A stretch of 64,000 bases of DNA, from contig NC_037592.1 of NCBI RefSeq assembly GCF_003073045.1, positions 40,667,760 to 40,731,759 on the forward strand, read 5' to 3'. The notes beneath the pieces are model-generated. The model ran no database searches, was not told the origin of the DNA, and saw only the letters and a list, made by a program, of their open reading frames with translations. Numbering within the stretch: the stretch's first letter is position 1; the number at the start of each line of letters is the position of its first letter. Source of the DNA: Pomacea canaliculata. Its lineage: Eukaryota; Mollusca; Gastropoda; Architaenioglossa; Ampullariidae. Shown here piece after piece: positions 3,039 through 55,844 of this stretch. A program made the translations under genes and the position numbers.

Positions 3039-6000
3039 ATGGGTGACAACAAAGTAACACAATAACACACGTTGTTCTAAGGGATTTAATTTTTGTTACA
3101 TTTTAAGTCTAAATGGAGCCAGTAGTATGCTAGCTTTTGAAAAATCTACAATGAATTTTTACTAAGAAGTTTTTTATTTCGATTTGCTCTCATATGTCAG
3201 CGTGTGCCGCAATGGATGTAATAAGTCCCAAGTAAAAATGTTTAGCAGAGCTTATGAGTATCTTGTAATTGTTTTCATTACAAATTCTGTGTTGTGACAG
3301 ACTTGGAGGGGGCGACAAGTGTCGACCTGGACTCAGCCACAGTTGTCGTTCTCAAGGAGGAGGGATTCACCAACCTGAACTGCTGCGCCACCTGACGGCA
3401 GATCACGTGACTGACAATCTGCAGAAAAGCAAGCGACTTCCTCTGGCTCAGTGTCTGGCTTTGAAATCAGCGATTAAAATGTTTGCAAATGAGTCGTCTG
3501 CACTGAAAGCAGCGGAGCCCAGTGAATGTCATGACAGTGGACACCAAGACACTGCCAAGTGCCTGACTAAGCACACGACAGTAGCAGCTCATGATGAAGG
3601 TACACCACCTGCTTCTAGTTTAATAATTTTAAATAACTGGGACAAACGGATTTTGTTTTCTAGAGAAATTCTTCTCTTGGCTTTATTGCCAAAAGGAAAA
3701 TATCATGGCTGTAAAAAGCTTTGTTTATGAAATAATATGCACAATAGCGAATCACCTGTAATCTACAGTGGAGGACGACCGGTAGATGACAGTTGGTCTT
3801 TACGAGACATCACTCCAAACAAAGTCCAGTGATGTGGTAATACATTAAATCAACATTTGTATCACAGCTTGACACCTTCATGTCTTACTTTAAAAAAAAA
3901 TTATTATTGAACGGACAGCTTCCGCTAAAGGTCCAGGTTTGAAAATTGTCTTAGTTCTAATTTAGAAAAATTTCTGTCTTGGGTCTCCTCAACAGATAAT
4001 AAAGTCTGATTTGATTTGATTGTCATATTTATAATTACAACACAATCTTATGACACGATTAAGAATAATGTAAACTTGAAGCTGGTGTCTGTCATGCACT
4101 ATATATATAGTATAACATTAAAGAAGTGATAAATAGAAGTCTAGTATTCCTCCATAACATGAACATTCTCATCTGTATATTACTGTTACACAGTATTGTC
4201 TTTGTGTATGTACAGATACATTTTTTTCAAATGCACCCGCAATATATTTCCTTGTTTTGTACGATTTGTCATCAAAGTTTCTGTTTCTATTCAAAAGCCT
4301 CAGTCTTTGGGGGGCTGTGTTGCCTCTGAATAAGAAGCTGATTCAGCTACTTTTTTAACCGACACTGATGAAACAAGAACTTATTTTGCAACAGAAACCT
4401 AATCCCAGGCCTTATTTCCTCATTTAATTTTATAAAACTCTTTATTGTTAAAATACATTTTAGAGTCTTATAAAATACATACTGTGATACTTTTGCAAAT
4501 TTGTCATTTTATATACATATATTTACTCGTCCTTGTCTCAAACTCACCTGTACAAGGTGAGGCAAGGAAGGAGAGAGAAAGAGGAGAAAGAAGGAAAGCA
4601 AGGAATAATGGGATGTGAACCGGCTTGAATGATACACACCACTAGGCCATCATCAATGATGCATAGCAGGTCATCTGGAATGCTGTATAGAGTAGGTCAT
4701 GATGGAGGATACAAGCTGACTAGTGTGTATATATAAACAAAACAGAGCACACCGAGCAAGTCAAAGTCCGTCTTTATCATGAGTGGAACTGGTCACCTGA
4801 CCATGAAAGAGTTTCTCTTCATTTTCTCATGCTAATCCTATTTAGAGCTAGTCTTTATGATTCAGTCCAGCACACATGTCAGTCTCTTACAAATCTTGAT
4901 GTTTTACAAAGGTTTGCTTACTTTATTTCCTAAGGTGAAACTTTCCGCCTGCTGCTGGTGGGCAAAACAGGGGCCGGGAAGAGTACAACAGGAAACACGA
5001 TTCTTGGCGAAGATTTTTTCGACTCTGAAGCCAGCTTTGACTCGGTGACAGACTTGTGCCAGTTGAAGAGAAGTCAACGCAGTGGGGAGAACATTGAGGT
5101 AAGCTATACTATCGAGGGTCTAGCTAGGTACACAGACGGTTGGACAGAAATTGAGGGTTGGATGGATTTTGTAGTCTGTCTATAATATTCATAGTACTTG
5201 TGACACTTTTTGTTCAGGATATTTTTGTTTTTGTGTCCTTTCAGATCCTTGATTCGCCAGGTCTGTTTGATACTCGCAAAGGTCACGAGGCAGTAGCCAC
5301 CGCCATTGCCAAGTCTGTGGCCGGCATGAATCCGGGTCCTCACGCTATTCTCTACGTCATCAAGATCGGCCGTTACACGGAAGAGGAGGAGGGCGTGTAC
5401 AATCGTCTACTGGAGCTTTTTGACAAGGACCTGGCGAGCTACACCATCGTCGTCTTCACTGGGGGAGACAGCATTAAAAGCGGAAGAAACATGGACGACA
5501 TGCTAGCAAATGCACCTGAGAGCCTGAAAAGGATCTTTAGAGCCTGTCAGAACAGGTATGTCGTCTTCAACAACATGGTGTCTGACAAACAGCCCCAGGT
5601 AGATCTTCTTCTGCAGAAGGTGCGAGAACTAGTGGCTGCTAATGGCGGAAAGCCTTACACTTGTCCCAAGTACTTCCACATCGGGGAAGCCATGGAGGAG
5701 GAGGTCAGGAAAAAGATGGCGAAGGTTGAGAAGCAGCACCTTCAGAGCAAGCAGTATGTCCAGGAACTTGAAGCCAAGGCGAAGCAAGCCGAGGAAGCCG
5801 TGGTAAGAGAGAAGGAAGAGTTTGAAAAGAAAGAACAAGCCCGACAGAAGGAAATGAGGGAACTGGAAGCGAAGAGGACAGCACAGCTGGAGAGTCTCAA
5901 ACAGCAGCTGGAGCAGCAACAGATGAGTGAGGAGAGGAGACGGCAGGAAACAGAAGCCTTCTTGAAGAAACTCGAGGAAGACAGGCGGCAACAGATGAGA

Positions 6001-6138
6001 GAGATGGAAGAAGAAAGGAAATTAGAGCAAGAGAACCTTAACAGGAAGGAAGAAGAAATGAACACAATGATAGAAAGCAGGATGAAGAGGAGAGGAAACT
6101 TCGAGAAGAAATGGCGCGAGCTCACGACGAGGAGATGA
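3039..6138 (+). pseudogene. Gene B: SAM-like/GIMAP GTPase, broken copy of gene C subfamily
   Basis: Four exons are visible: 3039-3053 (MGDNK, start), 3301-3599 (SAM-like domain), 4935-5098 (P-loop) and 5245-6138 (rest of the G domain plus coiled coil). The P-loop GKTGAGKSTTGN, G3 DSPGLFD, the GIMAP box with GPHAILYVIKIGRYT, G4 TGGD and G5 RYVVFNN are all intact. The frame is broken at the first donor (one base short against gene C), inside the SAM-like exon (one base lost in AACCTGAACTGC) and near 6090, where a lost base gives an early stop at 6138. The ancestral stop matching gene C is at 6270-6272. A GTPase domain could be made only from a different start, which I do not see. If expressed it would bind GTP like other GIMAPs. 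Most likely a recent pseudogene; sequencing indels are a less likely cause because several are not in homopolymers. Confidence 0.75.
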
Positions 6139-9100
6139 CTGCACTGAGGGAAAGAATCGTCGAAGGACAAGAACCTTCTTTCTTGAACTATGTGATGACA
6201 CCTTTTGTACAGCTTATTGAAGGCGTGTGTAATTTGATCACAAGATTGGCTTCTGACTTTGATGATGACTAATTCATTTGGTTTCTGCCTCTTCCATGTT
6301 TCTTTTTTGTTTATATTTTTGCTATTATTTACAGTAGTATTTTAATCAAAAAAGTGAGTGTGCATGTGGGTGTGACTACTCACTACAGTCTTTCAGCTCA
6401 GCCTGTAAAAGCTCCATGTGACGAAAGTATTCGTGTGTGTTTCTTGAAATGAATCGCAAATTATCGACATATAGTTCTTACCTACTAAAATATTTTTTAT
6501 ATATTTTGGAGACCTGTAACACATTCATAGATGGACTGCCAGATCGGTCTGCCGAAATGGTTTTGCATTTAATGACTACTTCGACTACTTGTTTACCTAC
6601 ATCCAAGCCTGCAACAAGTTTATTTCTCGCTGTACGAAAGCTTATTGCCTTCGTTCGTTGATTCGCAAGAACCTTATCCATTGACCTCCGCCATCACAAG
6701 CACCACCTCAGTTCATGGTTGAGTTCTCTCGTCTAAACTCATCGGTCATCCATCTTCCAATGTCAGTGTTTATTCTACCAATATTAAAGGTTTGGCTACA
6801 TGTGTATGCAGGACAATTAGACATATATATATATATATATTATTAAGCTTTTTTGTATGGCTGTAGATATTATTGATATAAACAACATGCAATGAAGAAT
6901 ATTTGTCAATTTAAATGAATAATGTACAGGAGAACTAGCTTTTACATTTTATTCGACGTCAATTTGTTAATTACTTGCTCTCGACTTTAATAACATTTAA
7001 GTGGCTTTACAATCTGGTAGAAAAATGTAATTATAAGAGAAATAAATCAATTCGACTTTTGTTGTGTAATATAGTTTCTGCATGGGATGTAACTGATTAT
7101 CCTGAATGTCAGCTAACAGTAGATATAGTAGAGATGTAATAAAGGTTTGAAGGTTATTTCCTGAAACAAAAATCTTTTTTTTTTTTAATCTTGTTAAAGC
7201 AAGTTTAAACTCTCAGTCTAATTTTTCAGTTCACTTAGAGCAGTTTTCCTTGACAAATGTCTTCAAAAATAAAGAAGTTGTAGTATTTTGTATAATACAA
7301 CGTGTGAAGATAAAGAACATTTGACACATGAGCTCGCTGTCACGGATTCCGTCTGTCTGTTCTCTATGAAAGCAGTTCTACAGTATTTTACCTCATTCAT
7401 TTACAGTGGTAGAAAGGAATTATTTAGAGGTTTCCTAAAATTAAGCAGAAATGATAGAAGTGTAAGAATGAGTGTGTCGTCCGGCCATCCACCGAGTCTT
7501 TAGTAAAGCCAGTCTGCTTTGGTCAGTGCCAGGGTCGAAAGGGAATCCATGGAAAACCATGTCACTGTGCCCTAGATACACAGTATGTTAGAGACACTAA
7601 GGAATAGTCTTGTCTTTCATGCGTTTATAAATGAACAAAGAGGATGTTGTGTTCTTAATGAACAGACAATCAACTGTTGTACTTCCATGACGGAAGAAAG
7701 ATGAACAGATGTTAACAGACCGACACATGATGAATCACACCAACCCGCCATTTTATTGAAAACATAGACAGAACTGGAGATAAAACTCGTGAGCTGTCTG
7801 TTGTTATTTTACATCCTCTGTATCATTATCATTATCAGCAACAGCATCGCCATCGTCATCGTCATCGTCATCGTCATCTCAGTTGGTGTCACACTTTCCA
7901 AGAAAATTTATTTCGAGTTATTAACTTGAATTTGCACAGCCTCTTCATTTACTGGTTTTACTGATGAGTAATTAAAGGACGAGATGTCTGAACAGTAAAC
8001 AGATGTTTCACTCAGTCACCAGGATATTTAGAACTGAAAGTGAAACATTTGTACTGAAATCTTCCTCCCTCTGTCTCTCAGTGTCACGATCCAAGCGACA
8101 AAATATTACAACGATGAAGCAGTTGGTCATGATTCGTGGTCTATTATATCTTTACAAAGACTGACTTTGTCCTGATGTTTTGTAGTGCCTCCATCATCAC
8201 TGTTATTTTTTTCTTCCCACTTTTGCTTTACTGAAGGCTTGATGATTATTTTCCTTAGATGAGATACATTTATGTTTCTAAGACTTTAAAGTGGAGAAGA
8301 TAATCTTCACAAAATTTTTAAAGTGCAATGTGTCTACGTTTATACAAGCAGAAAGAAAGGAAGCAATAAAAAATGAAAGAAAGAATTACACTGAAAGTAA
8401 ACGAACAAAACAGCAGTAAATAAGGAAAAGTAATTGCGAAACACACTTGAGCAGTTTGCTATAGTTTCAGCTAATCAGTTCTCAAAGGAATCCAATGATC
8501 TAGATAACTACAGAAGAGAAAAGTGAAATAACAATTAATTGGCAGTTATTTTATACCAAATTATTAATAAAAAGACCCGATAAACCACAGCTCATCACAT
8601 CAAAAAGCCACTCAAGCTTGAATCAATTGGGTGGTGAATCCTTACCGAATAAATGAAGTATTAATAACAAACAATTTCACAATGAGGACTAAGGCGTACC
8701 CCAACAGAAAAATTATATATATATATTGGAGTTATTTATGTATGCATGTTGTATGTTCCTATGTGAATGTGTTTTTGTGTGTCTGTCTTTCAGTGTATTA
8801 TCGTGTGTTTCTAGGATGCATTTGAGTTCTAACAAGGCGGGTACTCACACGCCTTCATGAGTATCTTGGATGGGGACACAGTCGCTTTCAAGAAAAACTA
8901 TTTTTATGCAAGGAAATCACTTTATACTTCCTTTACCAGCTATAAACATCCGCCAAGGTTTTAGTTTCTTCACAAAATGTTCCTAACAACTAGACTCCTA
9001 TGGATTACGACCACAAATTAATTTGATTTTATTGGCACTGTTTCCCCAAGTTATGTCAGGCTCTGTACACATCCATCCATCACACGACTGAGGGACAGAG

Positions 9101-9159: not shown

Positions 9160-12100
9160 ATGGGTGACAACCAAGGTAACAGAATAATTTAAGTTCAAAA
9201 TGGAGTAAGTAGCATGTGAGCTTTTGAAACATTTACAAGGAATTGTTACTAAGCAGTTCCTTTTTCTCGATGCTCGTACATTCGTCCTTTTACCTTCCAG
9301 TTATGTGACGTCCCTCATTCTCTTCTTTCTTCCTTGAAGATAAAATTTGTAAATAATTCTCAAATTTTTATTGTTTTCATTACAAATTCTGTGATGTGAC
9401 AGACTTAGAGGAGTGGGCGACAAGTGTCGACCTGGACTCAGCCACAGTTGTCGTTCTCAAGGAGGAGGGGTTCACCAACCTGGAACTGCTGCGCCACCTG
9501 ACGGCAGATCACGTGACTGAGAATCTGCAGAAAAGCAAGCGACTTCCTCTGGCTCAGTGTCTGGCTTTGAAATCAGCGATTAAAATGTTTGCAAATGAGT
9601 CGTCTGCAGGGTTAGAAACAGCGAAGAGTAGTGAAGTTGCTGACAGTAGACACGAACCGACTACAGACCACCTCACGGCATCAGCAGCCCTTGGTGAAGA
9701 AGGTACAATAACTGTTTACAATTTAAATTCTTCTAATCAGGTTAAAGTAGTTCTAGTTTTTTTTTCTAGTGATAATTATTTCATTTGTTGACCGCAAAAG
9801 AAAAAGTGAGACGATGTAAGGCTGTGTAATGATGGCTACGATATTGCCTGTGATCGTCAGGCGATGAGGAGCGATGATGGTGGAGAGGAGAGACTGGTCT
9901 TCAAACGAGCCAGCTACTGAGGCTGTAGTGGTGACAGATGAAAGCAAAAGGACTTCATGGAAACATACAAAGCACTTTATTTGCCTTATTTGCCTTAATG
10001 TTTCTCTTTTCTTGCCTTCCTGCACCTCTGTACAGCCTTCACTGGAAGTCAAGTGTTTATTCATGACACCAACATTTTCAAATGTCTGTTGCCGTTACAC
10101 AGTATTGTCTATCTCTGTAACTCGCTCCTGTGTCTGTACAAACAGAAGCTGATTTTTTTTCTTTTACCGCATTATGTTCCTTGTTTCAAAGGAGATTTGT
10201 TGAAAGTTTCTGTTTCGATTGAAAAGCTTCAGATCTTTATATTATTTCCTCCGACTAATAAGCAGATTCAGTTACTTGTTTAACCGATCTCCACCAAACA
10301 AACATTTTAGGCAAGAGAAACATAAAGGCAGGTTTGTCTCCTCATATAATTTTAAGAAGCTGTCATAGCGGATGTATTTTATTAAGAAATTTATTTTATA
10401 TTATTATAATAATAATAACACTGCAATGCATTTACAAATATATTACTTTCCATTCGTTCATATATTCTCTCGTTCCTGTCACACACTTTGGAATGAAAGA
10501 GCAGGACGATGAAGAAGGGGAGGTAGAAAAAAAGAGAGCAATGAAGGTCATATAGAATGATACACAGCAAGAGGTCATGATGACAGATGCAATCTGAGTT
10601 TACAACATTAAGAACATATTGTAACCAGGACAGATGGGAATTGTCTATGAGGGTGATCGAACTTAACAGGGTTGACAGTCGGTGTTTTTTTTTTTCTTCT
10701 TTTGTTTTTTGTTTTTGTTTTTTTTGGTCCTGGTACTCCGGTTTCCTCCCTTTGTGTATCTGTGTAGGATATTGCAAGTAATGCTCCATGTTTATTGTGA
10801 ATCAAACTAGTCGCCTGACACTGGTGCATAAAGAGTTGCTTTCTGATGTTCATATTTGAGAGCTATATATATATTATGATACTTCAAGCATACGATGTCA
10901 GTACCTTAATGTAAAACTACAAAACTCTATAATGTTTTACTACTAATACAAAAATTCCAATTATTTTATTTTCTAAGGTAACCCGTTCCGTATTCTTAAG
11001 GTGGGCAGTGACTCGGATCCAGACCTGATCCAGTTGAAAAGCGCCGAGCGCAATGGTGTGACCGTTGAGGTAAATTATGTTAGCGAGAGTTAAGCTAGGT
11101 CCACAGACGGTTGGACAGAGATAAAGGGATGGATATATTTTACAGCCTCTCTACAGTATTTATAACACTTGTACCACCTTCTGCTTTAGATAATCATTCT
11201 TTCTTCTTGCGTCCTTGCAGTACCTGGACTCGCCCGGTCTGTTTGATACTCGCAAAGGTCCCGAGGCAGTAGCCACCGCCATTGCCAAGTCTGTGGCCGG
11301 CATGTATCCGGGTCTTCACGCTCTTATCTACATCATCGAGATCGGCCAATACACCGAGGAGGACGAGGGCAAGTACAACCGACTGCTGGAGCTTTTCGAC
11401 AAAAATCTGGCGAGGTACACCATCGTCCTCTTCACTTCAGGAGGTAGATTCAGCAGAGTAAAAAAAGTGGAAGACATGCTAGCAAATGCACCTGAGAGCC
11501 TGAAAAGGGTCCTAAGTGCCTGTCAGAACAGGTATGTAGATTTTAGTGACGGGGTAGTGACTGAGGTCTTTGTCCTAATGCAGAAGGTGCGAGAACTAGT
11601 GGCTGCTAATGGAGGAAAGCCTTACACTTGCCCCAAGTACTTCCACATCGGGGAAGCCATGGAGGAGGAGGTCAGGAAAAAGATGGCGAAGGTTGAGAAG
11701 CAGCATCTTCAGAGCAAGCAGTATGTCCAACAACTTGAAGCCAAGGCGAAACAAGCCGAAGAAGCCGTGGCAAGAGAGAAGGAAGAGTTTGAAAAGAAAG
11801 AACAAGCCCGACAGAAAGAAATGAAGGAACTGGAAGCGAAGAAGACAGCACAGCTGGAGAGTCTGAAACAGCAGCTGGAGCAGCAACAGATGAGTGAGGA
11901 CAAGAGACGGCGAAAAACAGAAGCCTTCTTGAAGAAACTTGAGGAAGACTGGCGGCAACAGGTGAGAGAGATGGAAGAAGATAGAAAATGGGAGCAAGAG
12001 AACCTTAACAGGAAGGAAGAAGAAATGAACACAATGATAGAAAGCAGGATTGAAGAGGAGAGGAAACTTCGAGAAGAAATGGCGCGAGCTCACGACGAGG

Positions 12101-12240
12101 AGATGACTGCACTGAGGGAAAGAATCGTAGACGGACAAGAACCTTCTTTCTTGAACTATGTGATGACACCTTTTGTACAGCTTATTGAAGATGTGTGTAA
12201 TTTAATGACAAAATTGGCTTCTGATTTCGGTGGTGACTAA
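9160..12240 (+). CDS. Gene C: SAM-like/GIMAP-family protein without a P-loop
   Basis: Exons 9160-9175, 9403-9702, 10978-11069 and 11221-12240 join to one open frame of about 475 residues with phases 1, 1, 0. Residues about 6-80 form the SAM-like domain (DLEEWATSV..LLRHLTADHV..LPLAQCLALKSAIK). The third exon is 92 nt against 164 in gene B, an in-frame loss of 24 codons that removes the whole GKTGAGKST P-loop: FRILKVG runs straight into SDSDPDLIQLK. G3 (DSPGLFD) is kept. G4 has changed from TGGD to TSGG, and G5 NNM is lost. The tail is a long Glu/Lys/Gln coiled coil ending in PSFLNYVMTPFVQLIEDV, a likely amphipathic helix. Frame conservation around a lost catalytic loop suggests a pseudo-GTPase that may still pair with active paralogues through the G domain or coiled coil. 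Start choice: the ATG in the 16-nt exon matches its paralogues. A poly(A) signal lies at 12541. Confidence 0.75.
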
Positions 12241-12546: not shown

Positions 12547-12599
12547 GTTGGTTATTATCATTGTTGCACATACATGTATATGCAAGACAATTTGCTACA

Positions 12600-38099: not shown

Positions 38100-41006
38100 T
38101 AATCATTGTTGCACATACATTTATATGCAGGACAATTTGCTGCAGATGTAGATGAGGATTTAGTGTATAGCTGCAGATGTAATTAATGTAGAGAACATGA
38201 ACGTCTTTTCGGACTCAGAATCACTCTCGTTTTTGAATAACTTGTTAAGGCAAGTTTTTAACTCTCAGTCACATTCTAAATTCAACTGGAGCTAACTCAG
38301 GAGCATCTTTCCAAGACTTATGTCTTGAAAATTACAGATTTATGGAAAAGAAATTATAATAGATATTTTGTATAATATACCATGTACAGATTGAAAAATA
38401 TTAAGACGCAAATCTCATGATGCTAAGAAGAATGGATGCTGTAAGATTCCACGTACAAAGAGTTATTTCTAAATATACCCGTTACACTAATAAACTTTAT
38501 GTGAAGCTTGTTTTCACCTACTTATCTCTATGATCATTATTTAATCTTAGTTCTATTTTATTGTTCTCAGTTTTCTAATTTCATTATCACTGAAATGCGT
38601 TTAAAAATACGAAAAATAAATAAATAATCTAATATTAAATAAAAGTCAGTTTCCTTGACGGTTTTCGTTATTTTCCCTCAGATTATTGATTTAAAAATTA
38701 AATTTGAGTTAAATCATTTTAGTTATTTGCTTTACGAACAGTAACAAACTGTGCAATGGCACGTCAAGATTGCCACAAGACTGTTAAGGTCATGCAGTAG
38801 CTAATGTTTTTTTTTCAATGAACATGAAATTAGCCACTGATAATAGAAGGCGTCGTTCACTTTGTCACTCTCATAAAGGGACATAAGCTGTCTCTTAGCT
38901 TCAAGCGCGGGTCATCTCCCTTCACTTCACTTACAAATTTTTTTTCTGGTATGGACAAGCTATTCTCCTAAAAATAAAAATTTGTCACGACTTATTTGTT
39001 ACAGAAAAGTACTGGATATCAGTCCGAAAAAAATAAAGTAGCAAGGGAAGTGAGGACATTTAATAGGACTTGAACCAACACTATTGTTATCCATGTCTAG
39101 GTATGTGTTGAGAGCAGATACACTATATCTAGTAATATTATTACTCTGAAAGAATAAAGTGATTTAGTTCCCCTCGAAGATACAAGCTGTTTTCAGACTT
39201 GATCTCCTACACTGTAAAGTTAAACTTATCCCCAAGACGAAGAATTTCAGCACAAAGTCAGTCGTTTGCATGACTTTACAGAAATTTACTCTAAAAAGAA
39301 TTTAGAACTGACAAAGGAGATCTTCACAAAATAACAAAAGAAAGAGATGAAGAAGAGAGGGGAAAAAAATAGAGAAAATAAAAAAGAGAGAATATAACAG
39401 CATCCTTTACAGGTGTGCAGCAGGCGGTGTGTCAAAGGTTATCATTATTCTAGGAGTACGCAGATCGTCGTCGTTTCTAAAAATAGCTGAGTTCTCGAGA
39501 AACTCTTATTTCCTGCTCCGCTGAATTCTTGAGAAGTCAAAAGAGCCTGAAGTGTGTTTGGTCCTATTTAAATCGGCTCAGACCTTACGATAAAAACAGA
39601 TCACCAACAGTGCACACTGCCGTTAGGTTAGTACCTACACTAAAATATAAACAACGGTACAAATTAGATACTCGTTGTAGTATGGATAGACGGACGGATG
39701 GGGATAGATTGATGGATGGTAGATGCAGTTCAAACAATGATAGAAAGGGGTGAGCTGATTTCTTGTCAAACTGGACATAGGTGTCTAAATCTAAGCTATA
39801 AGCTGACAGTTCCGTAGAGACATTTTAAAGCCAACTTTAAAACAGAAATATGTAGGCCTTTTGAAGTCAGAGTTTTAAAGATGAGTCACAAGGCCTTTCG
39901 AGTAACCAGTTACTCAACTCATTACACAAAATCACTAAAGGCGCCCTGACAAGTCTGCAAGAAAACTTTAAATAATTAAACATAATAAAGTAAAAGGCAT
40001 AAATTCTCACCATCTCTTAGCCAAAGGTGTACTGAACAAAACTTGTTCACTGTTTGTAGGACACAATTTGGGAGATGGAGCCAAACCTCATCTTATCTTC
40101 CTCAATATCACCATGCTGTTGATGAGCAGCAGCTGGTGTTCTTATGCCTAACCTTCTGTAGTCGGGTATATCTACCACCAGGTTAAGCTTTCGGAGGTCA
40201 ACACATCGAACATTTTTAAATCCGAATTTATTTCATTATCTTCATAGTTTCTTTTATTTTGTCTTGTGTAAACCTTTTCCAAACCAGAAGTTCCCGTATG
40301 TAAGCGACCTTACTGATGTCATTTGAACAAGTTCTTCCAAATTCATGCACAGTTCTTCCCCTTTACGATTTAATGTAATCTTTATCACAGCTTTTTAAGT
40401 ACAACGCTGCCCTCTGTATAACTAAATTAAATTAAATTTAAATTAAATGTTAAATGAAAATTACTTGATTTTTCGTATTTTGTTTACTCTGTCAGACTCT
40501 GTTAGGGTCACTGTCACAGTAGTATTGCAATGTTGTGTAGCGATTCAAAATAAAACACCGTTAATGATATATTTAAATCTAAAAACTTCTGTCAAAATAG
40601 TATTAATGTATATTCTGTCATGCAGCCGTGGTTCTATGCGTTGAAAGTATTCACTTATTAAATGTAAAAATCAACCAAGAAAATATAACATAAGTATATT
40701 ACAGTAATGTATCATAAAAAGCTTAAGGAAATCTTAAAAGGGACATAATCTAACAGTCCCAAACATCTTTTCAACGACGACAGAAATGAATAAAAGTAGA
40801 GACTTCATCAGTTACCATATTAATAAACATATTTCTGGCACATTTCATTTATCCAGAAAAAGCATCGTATCATCTTTCTATAGTCATATTATATTTGTAA
40901 TCAACCAGTGCGGTGAGCAAACTAAAGTGCTGCAGAATTAGCCAAACGTTTAAGCAAATCCTGATTAAAAAAAACTAAGAAAGAAACAAAAAACTGCAAC
41001 ACTACT
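38100..41006. other. Intergenic region between convergent G and E2
   Basis: 38875-39290 copies the gene C flank at 12965-13400. The rest holds no recognisable gene; the short open frames have no family features. Confidence 0.5.
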
Positions 41007-44000
41007 TCAAAAAAATGAAGCGATTCCGTCAATCACCATGTTCACGAAGTTGTTCACGCCGCTTTTAATTTTGTCTACGAAACTTGGTTCTTTATTGTCT
41101 GCGATTCTGTCCTTTAGTCTTCTCATCTCCATTTCGTGGGCTCTCATCCTTTCTTCTTGCTGTTTCCTCTGCTCCTCAATCATCTTTGACATCGCCTCTT
41201 GCATTTCTTTCTCTTTCTTTTGGAGCCTCTTTTGCTCCCGTTTTCTGTCTTCTTCCATCTGTCTCATCTGTTCTCGTTTTTCTTCTTCAAGTTTCCTCAG
41301 GAATGCTTCTGTCTCCTGCCTTCTCTTCTCCTCACTCATCTGTTGTTGCTCCAGCTGCTGTTTCAGACTCTCAAACTGCGCCCTCCTCATCTCCTCCTCT
41401 TCCTTCATCTCCTGCTTTCGGGCTTCTTCTCTCTTCTTAAGGTCTTCCTTCTCTCTCGCCACAGCCTCTTTCGCCTGTTCTGTTTTGATCTCAAGCTCCT
41501 GGACAAACCGCTTCTTCTTGAGGTCCTGCTTCTCCACCTCCGCCACTCTTCGAGCCACTTCCTCCTCCATTCCTTCGCCGACCTGCATGTACTTGGGACA
41601 GCTATAAGGTGCACCGCCGTTTTCAGCAACCATTTCTCGAACTTTCTGTAGAAACAAGTCCACCTGAGGCTGCTTGTTGGCCGCCATGTTGTTGAATACA
41701 ACGTACCTGTTCCTGAAGGCCTTAAGAAGCTTTCTCAAGTTTTCCGGTGCCTTCGCGATCTTCTCCTCGATGGACGCACCTGTGCGCAGAAGGTCATCTC
41801 CTCCAGTGAAGACCACCATGGAGTAGTTCTGTAACTGTTGGTCAAACAGTGCAGTGAGTCGGTTGTACACACCCTCGTCTTCCTTCGTAAACCGTCCGAT
41901 CTTGATGACGTACAGGAAAGCGTGAGGACCCGGATGCATGCAGGCCACAGCCTGGACAATGGCGGTGGAGATCACCTCGTGGGTGTTACGGGTGTCGAAC
42001 AGACCTGGCGAGTCCATGATCTGTCATGAATAATAATGACACCTTACATTTAATTTAAGGCTCATTTCAATCCGAGTAATCACCGAAGGTCGTGTGTGCG
42101 TGTGTTTGAGAGAGACACACACAAATCTTTATCTTTATTTATAAGAAAAAATAGAATAAGCAAAGTTATACATTTTAACTGCTAGCTCTTGGTCTGAAAG
42201 AAGACTCATAGAAGCACCACTAGTCCCACAGAGTGGAGGGGACTCTTAAGCTCTGTAATTAGGATCACAACTTCTGTTTTCTGACGACTGGGTGCTATAT
42301 GATTTATTTCAGAGAGGACACTAGTAACAGCAGCAGCAGCTGTGATGTATCAATGATTATTTGTGGTAATTACTAACAGTCTGAGTGGTCATTCCCTGTC
42401 TAATTACCTCAATCATCACTCCATTGCGAGTGCTGCGCTTGAGCTGACAGTCTCCGGTGACGGAGTCAAACCTGATGTCGGAGGTGAAATGGTTGTCCCC
42501 GAGGATGGTGTTGCCCGTGGTACTTTTACCTGCTCCAGTTTTGCCCACCAGCAGGAAGCGAAAAGTCTCACCTGCACATATAGGTAGTGCACCTATATTT
42601 AAACAATATGTGATGTGAACACTGTATGTGATGTTTGTCATTTCAACACAGAACACATGCAAAAACAATATTATTTTGACAATATTATTGTCAACACAGA
42701 TTATTTGTCGCATTAAGCAAACTATTTTCATGATCTTTTGCACTAGCTTAAATATTTGCAAGTCGAAGCAGATATGTTTAACCTAATGAACCGATTGTAA
42801 AATATGTTTATCCTAAGACGCAGACCAATACTTAAAATCTGTATATTTTCTCCCAATAACTTATGTTTAATATTTAATTTATCTATGGGGAAAGCTTTAC
42901 ACCATCTGCATCAGATCGGTTAGCTCACTTGTTCAAAGTAAAAGTCTCTTCATAAAATATTTGCAAACCATCTGAAGTACTGATTGGCCTCACCTCCAAA
43001 CCCTTGTCTGTCCCATGGCGATGCGGTGTGAACCTGTTGTCTGTAGTCTGCTTGAGGTGCCGAGGTCTTCACTCCAGCCTGTGGCTCAGGGTACGGGTAC
43101 CTGTCGCTACCTGCATGTAGTTCTTTCTGTGGTCTAATGTAGGTGTGGGCAGGCGCTGATGCCCCTTGGTACTGTTCTCGCTGCACCACTTGGTAACCAT
43201 GGTAACCTTGCGTCACGTGCTGTTCACTGGGGAACTGTGGTTGAGGATGCCAGTCATCGACTGTCTGGGATGGCCTCTCTGCTGCCATCTCTTCTGGTCT
43301 CCATGGAAATGACTCTCTTTGTTGCCTTTGTGGACTTACAGTGGGTACATTTCCCTCCAGGGATCCGTCATTTCCTGTCTGCCGGCCGGGACCAGCATCT
43401 GAATCATTACAAATGTTTCACTAAACTTACAGTGAAATTAATTTTTAAATTGTAATAATGAACTAAAGCAGCTGTCTCAAACTACATTGACCAATTTAAT
43501 TCTAAACTTTAGAAATGTTATGTCCTTCTTAAAACAATGTGTCTGCACATAACAGTGTTAGGTACAGGGAGTGTCTGTAAAGGGTTGCTCTACTTAAATT
43601 ATCATTATCAAGTTACTGCCCTTTGCCCTCCACCATACCTCGCGTGGTAAACACCTGGAATTCTTCAGGACGGCAACCAACCAGATTTTCTTGTTCACGT
43701 CTGCCAGGTGCTACAGGTGCAAAGGCAGGTGCAAAGGCAGGTGCGGGGGCAGGTGAGGGGGCAGGAGCTGGGCAGGTGAGGGGGCAGGAGCTGGGGCAGC
43801 AGTCTCCCCTGTCAGTTTTTTCACAGCTTCTTTCAGTGCCAGACATTGGGCCAGTGGCAACAGCCGGGGTCCCTGGAAGGCTTTGTCAATCTCATCCGGT
43901 GTCAGACGACTCAACATCCGCATGGAGGTGAAGCCCTCGTCCTTGAGGAACCTGAGGGTCTGTGGCGTGACGTCAGAGCTCTCCGCCCACGCCTCCAGCA

Positions 44001-45098
44001 CCTTGTCTGTCAGACATATCACGTGATTATCAGGGGAAACTTGTCTTTCGTTCGTGTAACCTTTTGTAAGTACTAATGTGATAGAAAGAAGTTTAAAAGG
44101 AACGATAGAAATGAGATAATACACCAGAATGAACAACAATATGTAAGAGGATGGAGCTCCTGAGTACTGTGTAATATAAATCTTCAGCCTCATTTCTTAT
44201 CCTTATTACAGCTCTCACTAATACTTCTTCTAATGTTGAGTATTGTAAATAAATTTATGTGTAATCACCAAACAGATTTCACAAGCAAACTGCACGTGCA
44301 CACAATGTCTGTCTGTCACACCTACAGGTCATGATAATGACATAGACTGTGGACTCTTTAAATATCTCGTCCCGACATCAGATGTTTCATCTGTCAGTAG
44401 AGCTAAATATGGGAATTCCCTTGACGTAGAATATTCTACACAATCCACTCACACACCTGGTTATAAGATTATCGATGAATTCTTCGTGCTTCTTTAAGAT
44501 ATTCACACACACACACGAAAGCACAGAACACGCGTACACACGTGTGTATATATAAATACCATTTGTATGTATAAATGTAAAAAAGCGCTTTACAAGTAAA
44601 GCTGAATTATTAGAAATGGAAATCCAAAATTGATAAACATTATTCTAATAAATTTAATAACAAAATATTTAGTTGCTAAAGGTTATTTTGATCTTCGCCT
44701 CCTCAGTAATTGATATTTTCATGACTTTTCTGAAAACATAGAACACGATATGATGTCAGCGGTCTAAGTCCTTCTACCAACTGTAGTAGTTGTTGGCAGA
44801 CTTCCATTATCCACGTCACACGACCCAACAGTTTCCAGAATCGTGTGTGGTTCACCTTCATCATTGTGTGGCAGGCGGTCAACGGTGTCATCCAGATAAC
44901 GACAACGATAACGATAACGAGATCTTTAGTCCTGTATCACCAGCCAAATGTTTGAACATACACACTTGTATCTACAATGACAGTCTCGCTTGTTACTGAC
45001 GAGTCTCACTGTAGAAAAAGTCACAAAATAAACAAACAACTTCTGTATAACTTAGCCTGAGGCTACAGTACAACTGACTTACCGTCCTTGTCTTCCAT
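41007..45098 (-). CDS. Gene E2: SAM-like/GIMAP GTPase, twin of E1
   Basis: Exons on -: 45098-45083 (MEDKD), 44006-43639 (SAM-like plus Pro-Ala linker), 43398-42994 (Pro/Gln/Tyr-rich linker), 42571-42408 (P-loop) and 42020-41007. The design is about 647 residues. G1 is GKTGAGKSTTGN, G3 DSPGLFD, the box GPHAFLYVIKIGRFT, G4 TGGDDL and G5 RYVVFNNMAAN; a Glu/Lys-rich coiled coil and FVDKIKSGVNNFVNMVIDGI close it. Unlike E1, its P-loop exon has the expected length. Its SAM-like exon carries a 23-base tandem copy inside the Pro-Ala linker (near 43755-43800), which moves the frame by two and would stop translation early in the next exon. So E1 and E2 are each broken at a different place; variable repeat alleles or assembly slips could also explain this. 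Expression level and splicing are unknown. Confidence 0.65.
42205..42330 (-). mobile_element. Remnant of the same LINE fragment in E2
   Basis: CACTAGTCCCACAGAGTGGA and CTGGGTGCTATATGATTTAT match the two ends of the E1 intron LINE relic (about 29828 and 30010), with the middle deleted. The insertion is therefore older than the E1/E2 duplication. Confidence 0.55.
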
Positions 45099-46557: not shown

Positions 46558-49239
46558 ACGATGAGCTGCGGGAGTGGGCCCGTGTCAAGGGAATTACGAC
46601 TCGGACACTAAAGGTGCTCGCCGTGCAGGGCGTGAGCTCTGTTCAGGATTTGATCCACCTGGACATCGGCATCCTGGAGCTGTCCGAGCTGCTACCCCGG
46701 GGACAGTGCCGGCTCCTGCGGCAATCTGTGGACGAATTAACAACGGAAAGTGAAGAACATCTTTTCCCGTCCAACTCTCCAAATCACTCTTACCGTCCAG
46801 ACACCTCACCTTCCTCACGTCTTTCATATCCCGATGGTAAGAAGACATCAAGATTAAGCAAACAAAAGGTTCAGCTCTCATTCCACAGCAATCATAACTT
46901 TAGTGTACAAGCCACTCAAATATTCTCACACCCCTTTCTTGTTTTGCACACGTCACTAAGAAAACTTCTAAACTCTGATTGGATGTCGCCATAGGACACC
47001 GATTTAAACGAAAGACCCTCGTTTAAGACAGATTCGATTCATGGAACTGTAAACTTAGTACATATTATTTTGTTTATTTAGTAGTTAATGAGATACAAAT
47101 TTCATTTCTTGTTATGACCGAGTTCATATCAAGAAAGGTTTTTCTATTTTTAGTCTTAGTTACTCCACTGAGACATAAGTTTAGTTTATTCCATTTTACT
47201 CCTCGGGGAGCATAGAACCGCAACAACAAAGACTTAAAGATAGGCAATACATCAAATTCCAGATATAATAAGCGCGATTCACAACCGCCAATCTTTGGAA
47301 CTAAGTGTGTTTTCCTTCCAGATCGTTCAATCGACACGTGGGGTTCATCGAACAGTCTGTCCCCCAGAACACTCCGTCTCTTGAGGCTGCAGGGAATAGA
47401 CAATGTCGACGAGCTGTATTCTCTCAGCCCCGATGATGTCAATCTGCTGGCTGTGGGCGCAGGCTTCTGGGAGGATGAACAGATGGGGAAACTGCAGCGA
47501 GCGATCCGACAGCTGCAAGTGGGCGAGGAAGGACCGAGAGATCGGTTCCAGAGTATTCCATTTGGGGACAGAGGTATGTCAGAACACGCACCATTATTAT
47601 TATTTTTTGTATAGGTCAATTTCTTACAACGAGTAACAGCAGTTGTAAAAAATGAATAACGTAAAATATCTTTCCTACCAGTTCTTTATAAGATAAAAGA
47701 AAGGACACAGGTTTCAAAAATAAATTATTCATATTAGTTCACAGAGTAGACAGAGTGCCACTGCCTCACAATATTAATTTACTTGTATTTGACTGTGAAC
47801 ATTAATACTTTACAGACCATCATGGATGGCAGAATCCCTGTCTCAATGACAGTCTGCGAGGCTCGGCAAGTAACAGTCTGCGATTCTTCCTGGTGGGCAA
47901 GACTGGCTGTGGCAAGAGCACAACCGGAAACACTATTCTGGGACAGGAACTCTTTCATAATGAAGTCTGCTTTAGCTCGGTGACCAGCAGGTGCGCACAT
48001 CAGAGGATCGAACGCAATGGTGTTGTCATCGAGGTAATCAACGTATGGCAGACACTGACTTGGACTGCTTTGCTTTCACTGATAACAATGATTGAAACAC
48101 CATCATCCACTTTATCGGCTCTATAGTCATTTATCTGTCTTACTTTACTGTGCATTCTACAGTCGTGCCATATTATCATAATTAGAGCAATCAGGTTTAG
48201 CAATCATGGTTGACAGAGAAGTCATGTGTCGGGTATAGACGCTCTAACCACCCGACTGTCGGCTGCCCCCATCGTCTTTCAGACTTTTTGTTTATTGAAC
48301 AACCAGTTTCATTATGATCGTGTTGTCTTACAGATCACCGACTCCCCAGGACTCTGTGACACAAAGAGATCACCAGAAGATGTCGCTGCGGAAGTTGTTC
48401 AGGCTGTGGCATGCATGCATCCGGGTCCCACGGCCATTTTATACGTCATTGCGATTGGTCGCTACACGGAGGAAGACCAGGGTGTGTACGAAAGGGTCAA
48501 AAGTCTGTTGGACGACAGGGTCACTCAGTACATCATCATCATTTTCACGCGAGGTGACGACTTGGCTCGACAGGGGAAGACCATCCAGGCGGTCCTCGAC
48601 ACTGCACCGGACAACCTGCGGACTGCACTGAATGAGTGCGGCCAGCGCTACCTGGTGTTCGACAACACCACTGAGGACAAACAACCTCAGGTGGACCGTC
48701 TGCTGCAGATGGTGAGCAGACTGAGGGAGGCGCATGGCGGCAAACCCTACACATGCCCCAAGTACGGAGAGGTCGGCGAGAAGATCGAGAAGGAACTTGA
48801 GAGAAGACTGCAGAAGGTGGAGGAAGCGGAGCTTAAGAAGAAGAAATATGTGAAAGAACTGGAGGACAAAACGAGCAGAGCGAGAGAAGAAGCGGAAAAA
48901 GAAAAGAAAAAGTTCGAGAAAATGGAGGCTGAAAGAGAAAAAATGATGAAAAAAGCAGAAAAAGAAAGAGAAAGAAAAATGGCCGAGTTGCAAAAAATAA
49001 TTAACGAGCAGAAACTCGGAGCAGAGAGACAGAGGGAGGAAGAGAGAAAACTGCGGGATAGGATGAAACAGGAGCGGGAAGAGTTCCGGAGACAAATGGA
49101 GGAAGACAGGAGAAGAGAATTAGAGTTGATTGAGAAACGAAACGAAGAAACACAAAGGCTGCTCAACCAAAAGGAGTCAGCTTTGACTCCGAGCGGGATG
49201 CGAACCGCAGACTTCTGGAGATGCAAGAGAAGGAGCTGA
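46558..49239 (+). CDS. Gene H: GIMAP GTPase with two tandem SAM-like domains
   Basis: Exons 46558-46836 and 47322-47573 each code for a SAM-like domain: DDELREWARVKGITTRTLKV with LPRGQCRLLRQSVDEL, and SLSPRTLRLLRLQGIDNVDE with LQRAIRQL. 47816-48033 is the P-loop exon (GKTGCGKSTTGN after a 23-residue lead), and 48334-49239 carries G3 DSPGLCD, the box GPTAILYVIAIGRYT, FTRGDDL at G4 (TGGD changed to TRGD), G5 RYLVFDN and a very charged coiled coil. Phases are 1, 1, 1, 0 throughout. The start exon is not certain. The frame ends at 49239, but the alternative frame continues as RRLLEMQEKELRSLKDKV and ends GCSIL at 49301, so the present end may be a one-base shift near 49175. A poly(A) signal lies at 49757. 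Confidence 0.75.
48195..48290 (-). repeat. Possible tRNA-derived SINE 5' piece in a gene H intron
   Basis: On -, GGGGGCAGCCGACAGTCGGG followed by TGGTTAGAGCG looks like the A-box part of a tRNA-related SINE. No B-box is clear. Words in common with 27300-27420 hint at a dispersed family. Confidence 0.3.
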
Positions 49240-49756: not shown

Positions 49757-49762
49757 AATAAA
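49757..49762 (+). terminator. Poly(A) signal downstream of gene H
   Basis: AATAAA in GAGAAAATAAAGTCTT, about 450-500 bases after either possible stop. Confidence 0.4.
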
Positions 49763-49769
49763 GTCTTAT

Positions 49770-51577: not shown

Positions 51578-54500
51578 ATGGACAACACTGCAGGTGAGGA
51601 ACACACACCATCTTTACATTAATAACCATTGAAAAGACAGTGACGATTACGTTTGATTATGATGATGTCAGCATCATGATGACGACGACGACGATGATGA
51701 TTGCGATGTTCGTAGTTGTTGTCGAATGATTTTCTCTTCTACGCTGGCTTTTACGTATTACCGATTAAGACAAGTTAAATGATAGAATTTGACATAAAAG
51801 AAACATACAGCCATTAAACTCTAACTTGGGTAAATACTTAGAAGTGATGCTTCACAGCAACAGTCATAAAACACCTGTGAACATTTAGACAATTAATGCT
51901 TAATATACAGGTATAGTGACAATCAACTTCTCATGTTAATCATGTTTTACCCTAACTTAATTGTAAAATACTTATACTAATCATTGTGATGGTAAGCCTC
52001 AAACCATTTACTTGTATTTTGAAGGGAATAAAGATTAGATGATTGTCATTAGAAGTTTGCTTATTCAAGATACAAGATTTCATCAAGTAAGGTGTATTTA
52101 ATAAAAGTTTATAAACACATGTGCTCAGAATCTGGGACAGGATAAGATTTTATGTTGGTCACTAATTTTTGTTGACACTAAAGAAAGAGGGAACTCTCTA
52201 TTCTCTTCTTAAATCAGTCATTTAATAATGATACATACATAATTCTGATTTTTACTTAGTCCATTTAGACCACGATTTGTATTCACTGAGATAAATTGCG
52301 AACACCAGAGATAAGTGGTCTCCTTGCTTGACACCAATTTCAATTTCAATAAGCTGTAACTTGTTTCCGTGAGCCTCGACATTCCTCAGAACATTTCATG
52401 TCTTTCCAGAAATTGAACGATGGGCAGAGAAAGAAAAGCTCACTCTGGAGACCCTCAAAACACTCAAGGAAGATGGCTTTGCTTCCTTTGAGACATTGAG
52501 TCTACTAACACCACAAGATGTGGATGGTTACTACGCTGCTACAAATCGTCTTCTGAAGGAGCAATGTCTGCGCTTGAAGAAAGCTGTGGACAAACTGAAT
52601 GAGCAGAGTTCACCAGAGCAGGTCAAGGACACTGGGGGTATCGCCAGCAAGGAATGTCAGAAGGACCGGTCAGAAGGTCTGATACCCAGTCTTTGAGTAA
52701 ATGTGTGTGTGTGTGTGAATATTTTTAAACGCTTTCAGGGAGGAAGGATATATTAGAGAGCAACATCATGTGAAGTTGAATTCAGTATTCTCACAATTTC
52801 CCTGATCTTCTCATAAGGTGGAACGTTTGTGCCCAAAAATAGTTGTAATTTATTTCATGTCAGTATTATTACATCTAATATTTATAACTGGCAATGGCAG
52901 AATGACAAATTTCTTATTCCATAATTTCATATCTTAAAATGTCTTTATTCCAAAAGAGAATTCCTGCCTCCTTTCAGCCAGAAGGAAGTAGAACGGATTT
53001 TAAAATATTTTATCCAAAACAGAAATAAGGGTTGTTCCAGTCTTGAATTCTAATATCGTTTTACTTGTCTTTACTTGGATCTTTCCTGTATATTGTTTCC
53101 TGTATATATGGACAGATGTCAGAAATCACACAGAAGACTTGTCACCTGGGAAAGCGGTTGCAGGAAGAGGGGATCGCGACACTCTGTCATTTCATGAAGC
53201 TAGAATGCGTTTTGAACCTGAACAAGGTTGGCTGCTGTTCTCAATACTTTTAAATTAATATTTAGGGTTAATTCTTAATCAGACAAATTATTTAAAAAAC
53301 TAACTTCAACGCAGTGTGCTGTCAATAGCACTCAGGACGGAAAACATTTAGATGTAGTGTGGAACTGTCGTTCAAAATAGCTATCAATGTAAATGAATAA
53401 CATAAATTAAGAAAATATTCATTTCTTGAAAGGACATTGCACATGAAGCTATAAGACATTCAACTCTAGAATAAGATATTTATTCCGAGAGAGAGAAAAA
53501 GAATACAAAGTTCTCTTCGCTATTTATATTGTGTCGATGCCAATAAGCTGCCTAAATTTAAACGATCTAACAAAGCCACCAAATAGTATCCCAAGGATGT
53601 TAAAGAATGTTTGTCGTGTTTTTTTAAAATATATTTACAAGACTGAGAAACTCAACCATATGTTTCTGTAAACCCAGGAGACACCAAAGTACTGGACAGA
53701 GGGCGATGGAAACATGAAATATCCAGAGGTAAGTATGCTTATCTTGGAATGAAATAGGCGAAGTCTCAGAAAAAAACAATTTTTTTCCTGCAATGTAACA
53801 ACAAACACTCCATGTGGTGCTCACACTGTGAGTTTATACATCCGAGAGAGGAACGCAAGGATGAGAGCGAGGATTATTATTTCATTCTCTGTAAAATAGT
53901 AACAAATGATAAGTTTCAAAAACTGTACATGCACGTGCGTGCAGTTTCTTTTTCAGAGGAGTTGCGGTTCCTGCTGGTGGGTAAGACCGGGGTGGGAAAA
54001 AGTGCAACGGGCAACACGATCTTCGGCGAAAACAAGTTTCGAACATCAGTCGGCTTCAGCTCAGAGACATCACAATGTGAAATAAATCGTGGTGTCGTCA
54101 GCGGCCTGAAAGTTGAGGTAAACACAACACACAAACAAACAAGCACGATCATAGATTAACACTCACACCACCACCACCAACACCACACGCACCGACGCCA
54201 CCACCACCATCAACAACAACAGCAACCACTTTTCACCGGAAATGTGTACATGATTTTCGAGGGACGGCGAAGTCTTTTGACCAGACCTTTACCTTCCACA
54301 TGACTCTCCCTAGAAACAGCCAAGAAGTTACGTTTCCCACCCTTGTGGCCACTAGGCTATGCATGCGTATACGTTTTGTTTTTCAAAATTACCTGTTTTT
54401 TTATCCAATATTAATTGACAGCTAAGCTAATTATTGCCTAAGACTATTTCAAAGGTGTTACACAGTTGTACCTATGTGCCCCTATTTTATCTTTTATCAT

Positions 54501-55844
54501 TAAGATGAAGACCTGCTTATTTTGGTTGATATTATCATGAAACTAAGCTTGCATACCTATTGTGTTTTAAATTTGCTGCTTACAACAAGAGGTTTCAAGA
54601 CCGAAGTCGTATCTCTGAGGTTTAAATTATCCCTTTCGAGTGAAAATATCGATGTAGTTGTGTTGTCTAGTACAGGAAACTTGATTCAGGTCAACGATTC
54701 TGACAGAGTTTCATACCTGGATCATCTCCATAACACTTTAAGAAGGTTTTGAAAAAATAGATTTTTGCGAAATAAAATTTTATTTTTAGCTAAAGAAAGT
54801 TTATAACTGCTATGCCATAAATTTTAATTCTATTTACAGATCACCGACTCGCCAGGCCTGTTTGACACAAATGTTACAGAAGAGAACATCGCTGCAAGGA
54901 TTGTGCAGGCAGTGGCCCTCTTACATCCGGGTCCTCACGCTTTCCTCTTCGTGGTGAAAATAGGGCGATTCACACGGGAAGAGGAGGGCACCTACAAACG
55001 ACTCGTTGCAATCTTTGATAAGGAGGTCACTAAGTACATGGTCGTCGTCTTCACCGGGGGAGACAACTTGAGGTCTGCCGGTCAAACTATCGATGACATC
55101 ATCAGTTCAGCTCCTGCTGGACTCAAAGACATTCTGAAAGATTGTGGAGGAAGATATGTGGTCTTTGACAACATGACAGCTGACAAAAAGCCTCAAGTTA
55201 ATCGACTGTTAAACATTGTGGTCCAAATGGTCAAGGACAATAACAATGAACGATACACTTGCCCGAAGTACATTTCGGTTGGAGAGAAAATGGAAGAAGA
55301 AATTCAGAAAAGGATGATGGAAGTAGAAAAGAGAGAGCACGAACACAAGCAGTACATCAGGCAACTTGAGATGAATGTCAGACAACTAGAAGAAAATGCC
55401 AAAAAAGAAAGAAAGGAATATGAAGAGAGAGAAAAAGCGCGTAAGGAGAAGATAAAGAAAAAAGAAGAAAAAATGGAAAGAAAAATACAGAAGATGTACG
55501 AGAAACTGGAGCTGAAGTCTCTTACCGATGCGGAGATGGAAAAACAAATGAACAATCTTTTAAGAGAAAACCAAGATCTGGTGAATCAAATAGAGAAGAA
55601 ACAAGAAGAAGATCGAAAGCAAACGGAAGAAAAACAAAGAAAACTAAAGGAAGAGGCAGACAAAGTAATGGAAGACATGAAAAAAGCACAAGAAGAAAGC
55701 CAGGAAGCTTATGATAATGAAATAAATCAACTCAAAGATGGTATTGCACGAAATGAAGAAAAGGGTTTACTTGGCAGAATGGCTGAGGGCATTGTAGAAA
55801 CAGCGGCGATGGTCTGGAGGGTCATCCGCGTGTTCTTCTCATGA
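51578..55844 (+). CDS. Gene F: complete SAM-like/GIMAP GTPase
   Basis: Exons 51578-51593 (MDNTA), 52410-52676, 53678-53728, 53957-54117 and 54840-55844 join in frame (phases 1, 1, 1, 0) to about 499 residues. Residues 6-80 are SAM-like ([36 protein letters not shown]). A 17-residue linker exon ([16 protein letters not shown]) follows. G1 GKTGVGKS is at 120-127, G3 DSPG at about 168-171, the box [15 protein letters not shown] at about 196-210, G4 TGGD at 237-240 and G5 RYVVFDN after it. The rest is a Lys/Glu coiled coil ending in the hydrophobic [20 protein letters not shown] tail, a likely membrane anchor as in some vertebrate GIMAPs. All GTP-binding motifs are present, so this is the best candidate for an active enzyme. 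The donor after the SAM-like exon (GTCTGA) is weak; the next better GTAAAT lies past a stop. Confidence 0.8.
53117..53250 (+). pseudogene. Decayed SAM-like exon in a gene F intron
   Basis: After an acceptor-like GGACAG at 53111-53116, one frame reads [20 protein letters not shown] and TLCHFMKLE, which resembles the tPxTLRxLKxEGFxSLxxLxxL core of the SAM-like exons. The second half is missing, no donor follows in frame, and the phase does not fit. It probably marks a former second SAM-like exon, as in gene H. Confidence 0.4.
54165..54236. repeat. (CAC/CCA)n-rich simple repeat
   Basis: CACCACCACCACC, CACCACCACCATC and CAACAACAACAGC patches in a gene F intron. Confidence 0.7.

Follow-up and report, generated by a model that had tools for sequence, protein, structure and literature searches.

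We have studied a set of GTPase genes of the AIG1 (GIMAP) type in the snail Pomacea canaliculata, in which a small helical domain, probably of the SAM fold, is encoded upstream of the GTPase. The window, i.e., the whole stretch of 64,000 nucleotides that was analyzed, covers C3:40667760-40731759; the genome has 24 contigs and 440,159,624 bases in total. The window forms the right end of a 0.29 Mb array of AIG1 genes on C3. From one to four SAM-fold exons appear to lie within a phase-1 intron of these genes, between a short start exon and the exon encoding the P-loop. On balance we favor the view that such SAM-AIG1 genes encode proteins in which self-association of the SAM domains clusters a GTP-switched GTPase.

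The array was read without gaps over C3 40,440,001-40,731,759, together with a single stretch (L032) at 41,150,001-41,160,000. An iterated profile search of these sequences returned 23 stretches corresponding to 22 copies of a domain of ~67 residues, one of which (in gene C) is split by a frameshift; 20 copies lie in the array and two in L032, 0.4 Mb away. Three whole-genome searches using single domains from the window gave overlapping sets of 20, 17 and 4 matches at E ≤ 0.1, and all of these (20/20, 17/17 and 4/4) fall on C3 at 40.45-41.16 Mb, with none elsewhere in the 440 Mb. This restriction to the AIG1 array and its neighborhood is more than chance. The SAM-like exons belong to 14 gene units, 10 on the plus and four on the minus strand, and in 14/14 the next downstream element is an AIG1 exon on the same strand. 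The number of SAM-like copies per gene is 0, 1, 2, 3 or 4, with four exons in one unit (40508064-40514237), three in another (40554344-40556121) and two in gene F. A single exon at L032:6690-7106 carries two SAM-like domains, the other copies seen being one per exon.

Within the window, AIG1 G exons are present in the genes named C, D, E1, E2, F and H in a preliminary description of this DNA, and also in a gene that is not among these, G (19634-25508). All seven have helical exons upstream on the same strand. The five G exons given to Pfam (E1, E2, F, H and G) all matched PF04548, with E-values of 1.6e-29 to 1.5e-37 and scores of 103-130 bits against a cut-off of 27; this family model also finds matches in bacterial controls. 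Both the P-loop motif GxxxxGKS and a G3 motif DxPG were found in C, E1, E2, F and H. By eye and by similarity, the window AIG1 genes have long, charged, heptad-like C-terminal segments that resemble each other. Among the matches listed in a Pfam search of the genome, PF04548 forms clusters on C3, C2 and C10 and is less frequent on C7, C11 and C13. The parts of the seven genes are as follows.

3039-3053, plus strand: gene C, leader-like ATG (MGDNK), abutting GTAACA in phase 0
3297-3502, plus strand: gene C, SAM-like domain remnant, split by a frameshift
4935-5098, plus strand: gene C, P-loop exon (G1), phase 1 in and 0 out
5245-6269, plus strand: gene C, AIG1 G exon and coiled coil, frameshift near 6042
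9160-9175, plus strand: gene D, predicted micro leader exon (MGDNQ), phase-1 donor
9403-9702, plus strand: gene D, SAM-like exon (domain 9402-9602), acceptor phase 1, donor weak
10978-11069, plus strand: gene D, P-loop exon remnant without GxxxxGKS, frame open
11221-12240, plus strand: gene D, AIG1 G exon and coiled coil, open to the stop
19634-19906, plus strand: gene G, SAM-like exon, phase 1-1
24239-24399, plus strand: gene G, P-loop exon, phase 1-0
24795-25508, plus strand: gene G, AIG1 G exon, G3 = DTPD, short C-terminus
33704-33719, minus strand: gene E1, predicted micro leader exon (MQDKD), phase-1 donor
31916-32266, minus strand: gene E1, SAM-like exon with Pro/Ala tail, phase 1-1
30717-31121, minus strand: gene E1, 405-nt Gln/Pro/Tyr-rich linker exon, phase 1-1
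30146-30309, minus strand: gene E1, P-loop exon, phase 1-0
28093-29118, minus strand: gene E1, AIG1 G exon and coiled coil
45083-45098, minus strand: gene E2, predicted micro leader exon (MEDKD), phase-1 donor
43711-44006, minus strand: gene E2, SAM-like exon up to an in-frame stop, 23-nt insertion in the tail
42994-43398, minus strand: gene E2, 405-nt linker exon, phase 1-1
42408-42571, minus strand: gene E2, P-loop exon, phase 1-0
41010-42023, minus strand: gene E2, AIG1 G exon and coiled coil
46558-46836, plus strand: gene F, first SAM-like exon, phase 1-1
47322-47573, plus strand: gene F, second SAM-like exon, phase 1-1
47816-48033, plus strand: gene F, P-loop exon with an 18-residue N-terminal extension
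48334-49236, plus strand: gene F, AIG1 G exon and coiled coil
51578-51593, plus strand: gene H, predicted micro leader exon (MDNTA), phase-1 donor
52410-52676, plus strand: gene H, SAM-like exon, acceptor phase 1, donor weak
53957-54117, plus strand: gene H, P-loop exon, phase 1-0
54840-55841, plus strand: gene H, AIG1 G exon and coiled coil

The nature of the helical domain was addressed by structure prediction and by comparison with SAM, death-fold and CARD profiles, the checks that the preliminary description had proposed. AlphaFold models were built from seven window copies. Those of H (predicted local distance difference test score 84.1) and of the first SAM of F (83.4) are five-helix bundles with a long last helix. 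Compared with solved structures using Foldseek, the H model found EphA2:SHIP2 (template-modeling (TM) score 0.71/0.77), the EphB2 SAM and the SLy1 SAM among its top matches, at TM 0.64-0.71; the F model matched the ASK3, p63 and EphB2 SAM domains (TM up to 0.77), the Caskin1 tandem (0.76) and the tankyrase filament. A 20-member alignment of the 22 domains was made, leaving out the frameshifted C copy and the copy at 40650176, which is identical to that at 40645176. Aligned by hhalign against ten SAM domains of the same genome, a profile of the domain matched end to end over 56 columns with P = 0.0052; against eight death domains it matched over 8 columns with P = 0.091. The helical domain probably has the SAM fold. 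With two models matching SAM best and the domain lying before AIG1 in 14 units, the N-terminal SAM-like domain of the preliminary description is supported.

Some of the same comparisons weigh against this assignment. None of the 20 copies matches a Pfam SAM family at E 0.1, the best values being E = 0.17 (SAM_2) and 0.18 (SAM_EPH), and neither model gave a Foldseek match at E ≤ 0.001. The SAM matches are mixed with RadA/Rad51, the RNA polymerase alpha C-terminal domain (CTD), NusA and the LEAFY oligomerization domain; the hhalign probability to SAM is 6.9%, and the best match of the profile to PDB sequences is the RNA polymerase alpha CTD (E = 0.00037), not SAM. RNA polymerase alpha CTD, RadA/Rad51 and NusA are themselves members of the broad SAM-like/helix-hairpin-helix fold. 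A Pfam scan of the first six copies found nothing over the cut-off, and in that of the 20 members the best family had E = 0.014, the better-scoring families being neither SAM nor death-fold. At least 54 SAM_1 and at least 40 SAM_2 matches were found in the genome at E ≤ 0.1, in overlapping sets, with none listed in the array. By sequence the domain is thus not a member of Pfam SAM_1 or SAM_2. RIBEYE (9wbj), a weak PDB profile match beside the RNA polymerase alpha CTD and NusA, was dropped, no supporting literature having been found.

The helical domain might instead be a divergent death fold, either CARD or death domain (DD), as in AIG1 proteins of Biomphalaria and lancelets. Architectures of the CARD-AIG1 and DD-AIG1 type have been published (passages of PMC7053062 and PMC12373286), and SAM and death domains are both small helical bundles. 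A death fold is nevertheless highly improbable, and we have rejected it. The predicted domain has five helices with a long last one, and death-fold entries are absent from all 50 fold matches of H and from the best 50 of 164 for F. The alignment to death domains is confined to the 8 columns noted above. Neither DD nor CARD appears among the Pfam families matched by the 20 members at E ≤ 1, and the genome matches to Death (at least 27) and CARD (at least 22) at E ≤ 0.01 include none listed in the array. Taken together, the comparisons support a SAM-like domain and disfavor the death fold, without a Pfam SAM match at E 0.1.

Exon phases were counted for the 21 helical domains (array and L032 together) that begin an exon, which leaves out the part of the C domain beyond its frameshift and, in L032, the second domain of the shared exon. 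An acceptor in phase 1 is found at the domain edge in 21/21 copies; phase 0 is also available in 6/21 and phase 2 in 1/21. A strong donor, defined as one matching at least four of six consensus places before the next stop, occurs in phase 1 in 13/21 copies, in phase 0 in 4/21 and in phase 2 in 0/21. Entry to the P-loop exon is in phase 1, close to its usual position, in 23/28 cases and exit is in phase 0 in 24/25; G exons are entered in phase 0 in 27/27. Phase-1 entry to the P-loop exon is also seen in most genes that lack SAM exons. The SAM exons therefore sit in a phase-1 intron that is inherent to the family, and exons of class 1-1 could be added or lost at the P-loop intron.

The observations of the preliminary description are largely right on these points, and its interpretation is partly supported. 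It had every junction before the P-loop exon in phase 1, which agrees with all the acceptors and with the 13 strong donors, but the leader of C is in phase 0 and E2 has no phase-1 donor. Symmetrical SAM-like exons are found in E1 and for both copies in F; that of C is frameshifted, that of E2 fails as assembled, and the donors of D and H are weak (4/7 places). A 1-0 P-loop exon holds generally, although the exon of D lacks GxxxxGKS. The symmetrical linker of E1 and E2 is confirmed as a class 1-1 exon of exactly 405 nt (31121-30717 and 43398-42994). No Pfam family matched it at E 0.1 when the E1 exon was scanned, and it has no relative elsewhere in the array; the Gln/Pro/Tyr-rich sequence is possibly disordered. 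The 51-nt linker of F is, in our gene model, not a separate exon: the P-loop exon of F starts at 47816 and is thereby 54 nt longer at its 5' end than is usual.

In D (MGDNQ), E1 (MQDKD), E2 (MEDKD) and H (MDNTA), a short leader with a phase-1 donor is predicted 0.2-1.5 kb ahead of the first SAM exon; these four were chosen by mutual likeness among several candidates. Leader candidates occur in 4/13 of the SAM-less genes examined (MTQ, MSQ, MSQ and MER), some 450-490 bases before the P-loop exon. We regard the leader exons of all the genes as predictions from sequence. Long first exons common to the array genes were sought, with nothing convincing and one match at chance level. An all-versus-all comparison of open frames, in which groups of at least four frames were listed, gave no convincing second class of N-terminal exons in SAM-less genes; these groups were mostly repeats, duplicates and antisense frames.

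The SAM exons are predicted to be spliced to the AIG1 exons. Against this are the 8/21 SAM-like copies that have no strong phase-1 donor, the rival leader candidates in several genes, with none of the shared type chosen for F (a doubtful MALSQ) or G (only unlike ones, such as MESE), and three SAM copies on C3 (40613056, 40645176 and 40650176) whose next P-loop exon is 8-16 kb away and which are possibly relics. The distances and the missing donors could also be expected if the SAM-like exons were separate small genes or unspliced exon relics. We think that explanation unlikely, given the consistent strand and order of all 14 units, the phase-1 acceptor of every copy counted, the confinement of the domain to this part of the genome in the three genome searches, and the clustering of the SAM-bearing genes on the GTPase tree.

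That tree was calculated from 27 G domains of at least 130 residues, leaving out broken copies. A branch with support 99/96 separates 16 rows from the rest. On one side lie nine SAM-bearing rows, an ambiguous row at 40621 kb and one long-branched SAM-less row (41152802); the other holds 13 SAM-less rows together with F, the relative of F at 40557 kb and, on a long branch, the copy at 41158 kb, which bears SAM. The presence of SAM requires 5 changes on this tree, compared with a mean of 9.1 for shuffled labels, a value as low being reached in 2/500 shuffles. The SAM-bearing genes are clustered.

The tree of the SAM domains (21 rows) contains two supported clades. One (96/97) has D, E1, E2 and relatives, including the first two SAMs of the 40508 kb gene; the other (96/95) has the first SAM of F and the three SAMs of the 40554 kb gene. 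A weak remainder (49/15) comprises G, H, the second SAM of F and the third and fourth SAMs of the 40508 kb gene. Since its SAMs are divided between the 96/97 clade and the weak remainder, the 40508 kb gene mixes SAM subtypes. Distances between SAM domains and between G domains were compared in 11/14 SAM-bearing units, leaving out C and two units with far-off SAM exons. The correlation is r = 0.55, equaled in 58/20,000 permutations, or 54 using the last SAM of each gene. On removal of the near-copy E1 these become 1184 and 1409 of 20,000; dropping the 41158 kb copy as well as E1 gives 71 or 2362 of 20,000, depending on the treatment of tandem copies. The correlation is not robust.

Common descent of the SAM and G parts is likely, and duplication and loss in place seem likelier than swapping. 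The clear modularity is that of copy number (0-4 domains per gene), with one tandem that mixes subtypes. To that extent the exchangeable N-terminus that had been suggested is partly supported, but the SAM-bearing genes cluster on the GTPase tree. An adaptor or oligomerizer role for the SAM part is likelier than the sensor role that had also been suggested.

How might such proteins work? The product would have, in order, a short leader, one or more SAM domains, a linker, the AIG1 G domain and a C-terminal coiled coil. The G domain would bind GTP and dimerize in the manner of GIMAPs, and the coiled coil could aid assembly or membrane reach. The SAM domains would associate with each other or bind another SAM protein, so that GTP loading would produce a larger cluster. 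These clusters would probably act in immune or cell-survival signaling, an immune role being suggested by membership of the AIG1 family. GTP-driven assembly, SAM self-association and the immune role are all proposals from analogy. The last ~25 residues beyond the coiled coil are hydrophobic or amphipathic, e.g., at 41010-41100 and 55750-55841. These ends of the window AIG1 exons are possibly a membrane anchor as in some GIMAPs.

SAM domains often self-associate, and an acidic middle with a basic last helix is seen in many that polymerize. The charge of the last part minus that of the middle has a mean of 3.65 in the Pomacea copies, compared with 0.14 (standard deviation 1.59) in column shuffles, with 69/5000 as high. 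Both signs of the pattern are present in 11/20 copies. Self-association is made less secure by the 9/20 copies that do not show the pattern, and by the ability of tandem SAMs to bind other partners too. The SAM exons might then be docking adaptors for another SAM or an unrelated partner, with no self-polymerization, the subtypes leading to different partners. The SAM domain evolves faster than the G domain: in pairs with a proportion of synonymous differences below 0.6, the median ratio of nonsynonymous to synonymous change (dN/dS) is 0.56 for SAM (15/210 pairs), 0.39 for the P-loop exon (33 pairs) and 0.30 for the G domain (57/351). This would fit docking, as would the division of the copies into two supported subtypes and a weak rest, and the SAM_1 and SAM_2 matches elsewhere in the genome are possible partners. 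The mean charge asymmetry, however, fits a self-associating SAM; we hold the docking explanation, the main rival, to be somewhat doubtful.

We suggest, quite tentatively, that a SAM-fold family with no sequence relative found elsewhere in the genome arose inside one AIG1 array and multiplied as 1-1 exons. The snail would thereby have gained a series of GTP-switched proteins with 0-4 SAM heads per gene, of mixed subtypes, and polymerization of these heads would lead to immune signaling assemblies, a SAM counterpart of the CARD-AIG1 and NLR-type platforms.

Several window genes are damaged (C, D and E2), which tells against a working SAM-AIG1 family. C has a frameshift within the SAM exon, another in the coiled coil near 6042, and a leader out of phase. 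The P-loop exon of D has lost GxxxxGKS by an in-frame deletion, with splice sites and open frame kept; D may thus be a relic, or its SAM-AIG1 product may lack the loop that binds the nucleotide. Relative to E1, E2 has a 23-nt insertion in the Pro/Ala tail, and no phase-1 GT before the stop at 43713. G has DTPD in place of DxxG at G3 (24795-24830) and a short C-terminus. A broken AIG1 copy resembling C and D occupies 36546-37853, for which the iterated profile search of the array found no SAM exon. The SAM copies at 40645176 and 40650176 are identical across 65 codons, and such near-identical duplicates show recent birth. It could be that the array is mostly decaying, with the SAM-AIG1 plan real and few copies at work. 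We consider this possible rather than probable, for H, F and E1 are seemingly intact, with open frames and P-loops kept (the G domain of E1 has a 5-residue gap relative to E2), and outside the window the SAM, P-loop and G domains are unbroken in the genes at 40508-40518, 40554-40558 and 40636-40638 kb. The comparison of E1 with E2 by dN/dS was uninformative, the copies being too close.

The closest known systems have other N-terminal domains. In Biomphalaria glabrata, AIG genes with N-terminal DD-CARD or DD-Fas are described in passages of PMC7053062. The likeness is one of tandem-arrayed snail AIG1 GTPases with coiled coils and, in some genes, an N-terminal helical interaction domain; the N-terminal domains are there called death-fold, kinase or ARM, whereas in Pomacea 1-4 copies of a predicted SAM are found. 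The terms 'SAM domain' and 'sterile' are absent from the main text of that paper. Lancelets have CARD+AIG1(+HINT) proteins (passages of PMC12373286), similarly with an adaptor ahead of the GTPase in an expanded, variable family, but with CARD rather than SAM, and with a C-terminal HINT. Control of GIMAP G domains by dimerization, and GTP-dependent dimers proposed to form scaffolds, are discussed in passages of PMC8201404, and helical or coiled-coil extensions of GIMAPs in those of PMC7053062. Vertebrate GIMAPs share the AIG1 G domain and these extensions, but SAM exons are not described in the passages of PMC8201404 covered.

SARM1 is an oligomerizer with tandem SAMs. SARM1, Caskin1 and tankyrase share the predicted fold, the Caskin1 tandem and the tankyrase SAM being among the fold matches; the Pomacea domain differs in lacking sequence-level membership, and those proteins in lacking an AIG1 GTPase. 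A plan of SAM, AIG1 and coiled coil was not met in the literature covered (titles, beginnings of abstracts and passages among the matches listed, mainly from open papers). This is in line with the preliminary description, which knew of no family with this plan; an N-terminal adaptor on AIG1 is already known from CARD-AIG1 and DD-AIG1 proteins in the passages cited, and the SAM front end is a new variation.

Invertebrate GIMAPs are expanded and poorly understood, and a known fold with an unrecognized sequence suggests that some may be wired by SAM clustering. Surveys of mollusc AIG genes that rely on sequence could overlook such an architecture. A phase-1 intron that takes symmetrical exons would let the number of adaptors vary among neighboring immunity-associated genes, and the single SAM domains offer proteins that can be tested directly for filaments.

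Two further features of the window lie outside the seven genes. An AIG1 fragment is present at 646-1032, and a long simple-repeat stretch at 62400-63000 has open frames with repeats of the LHFLI/KVQDK type.

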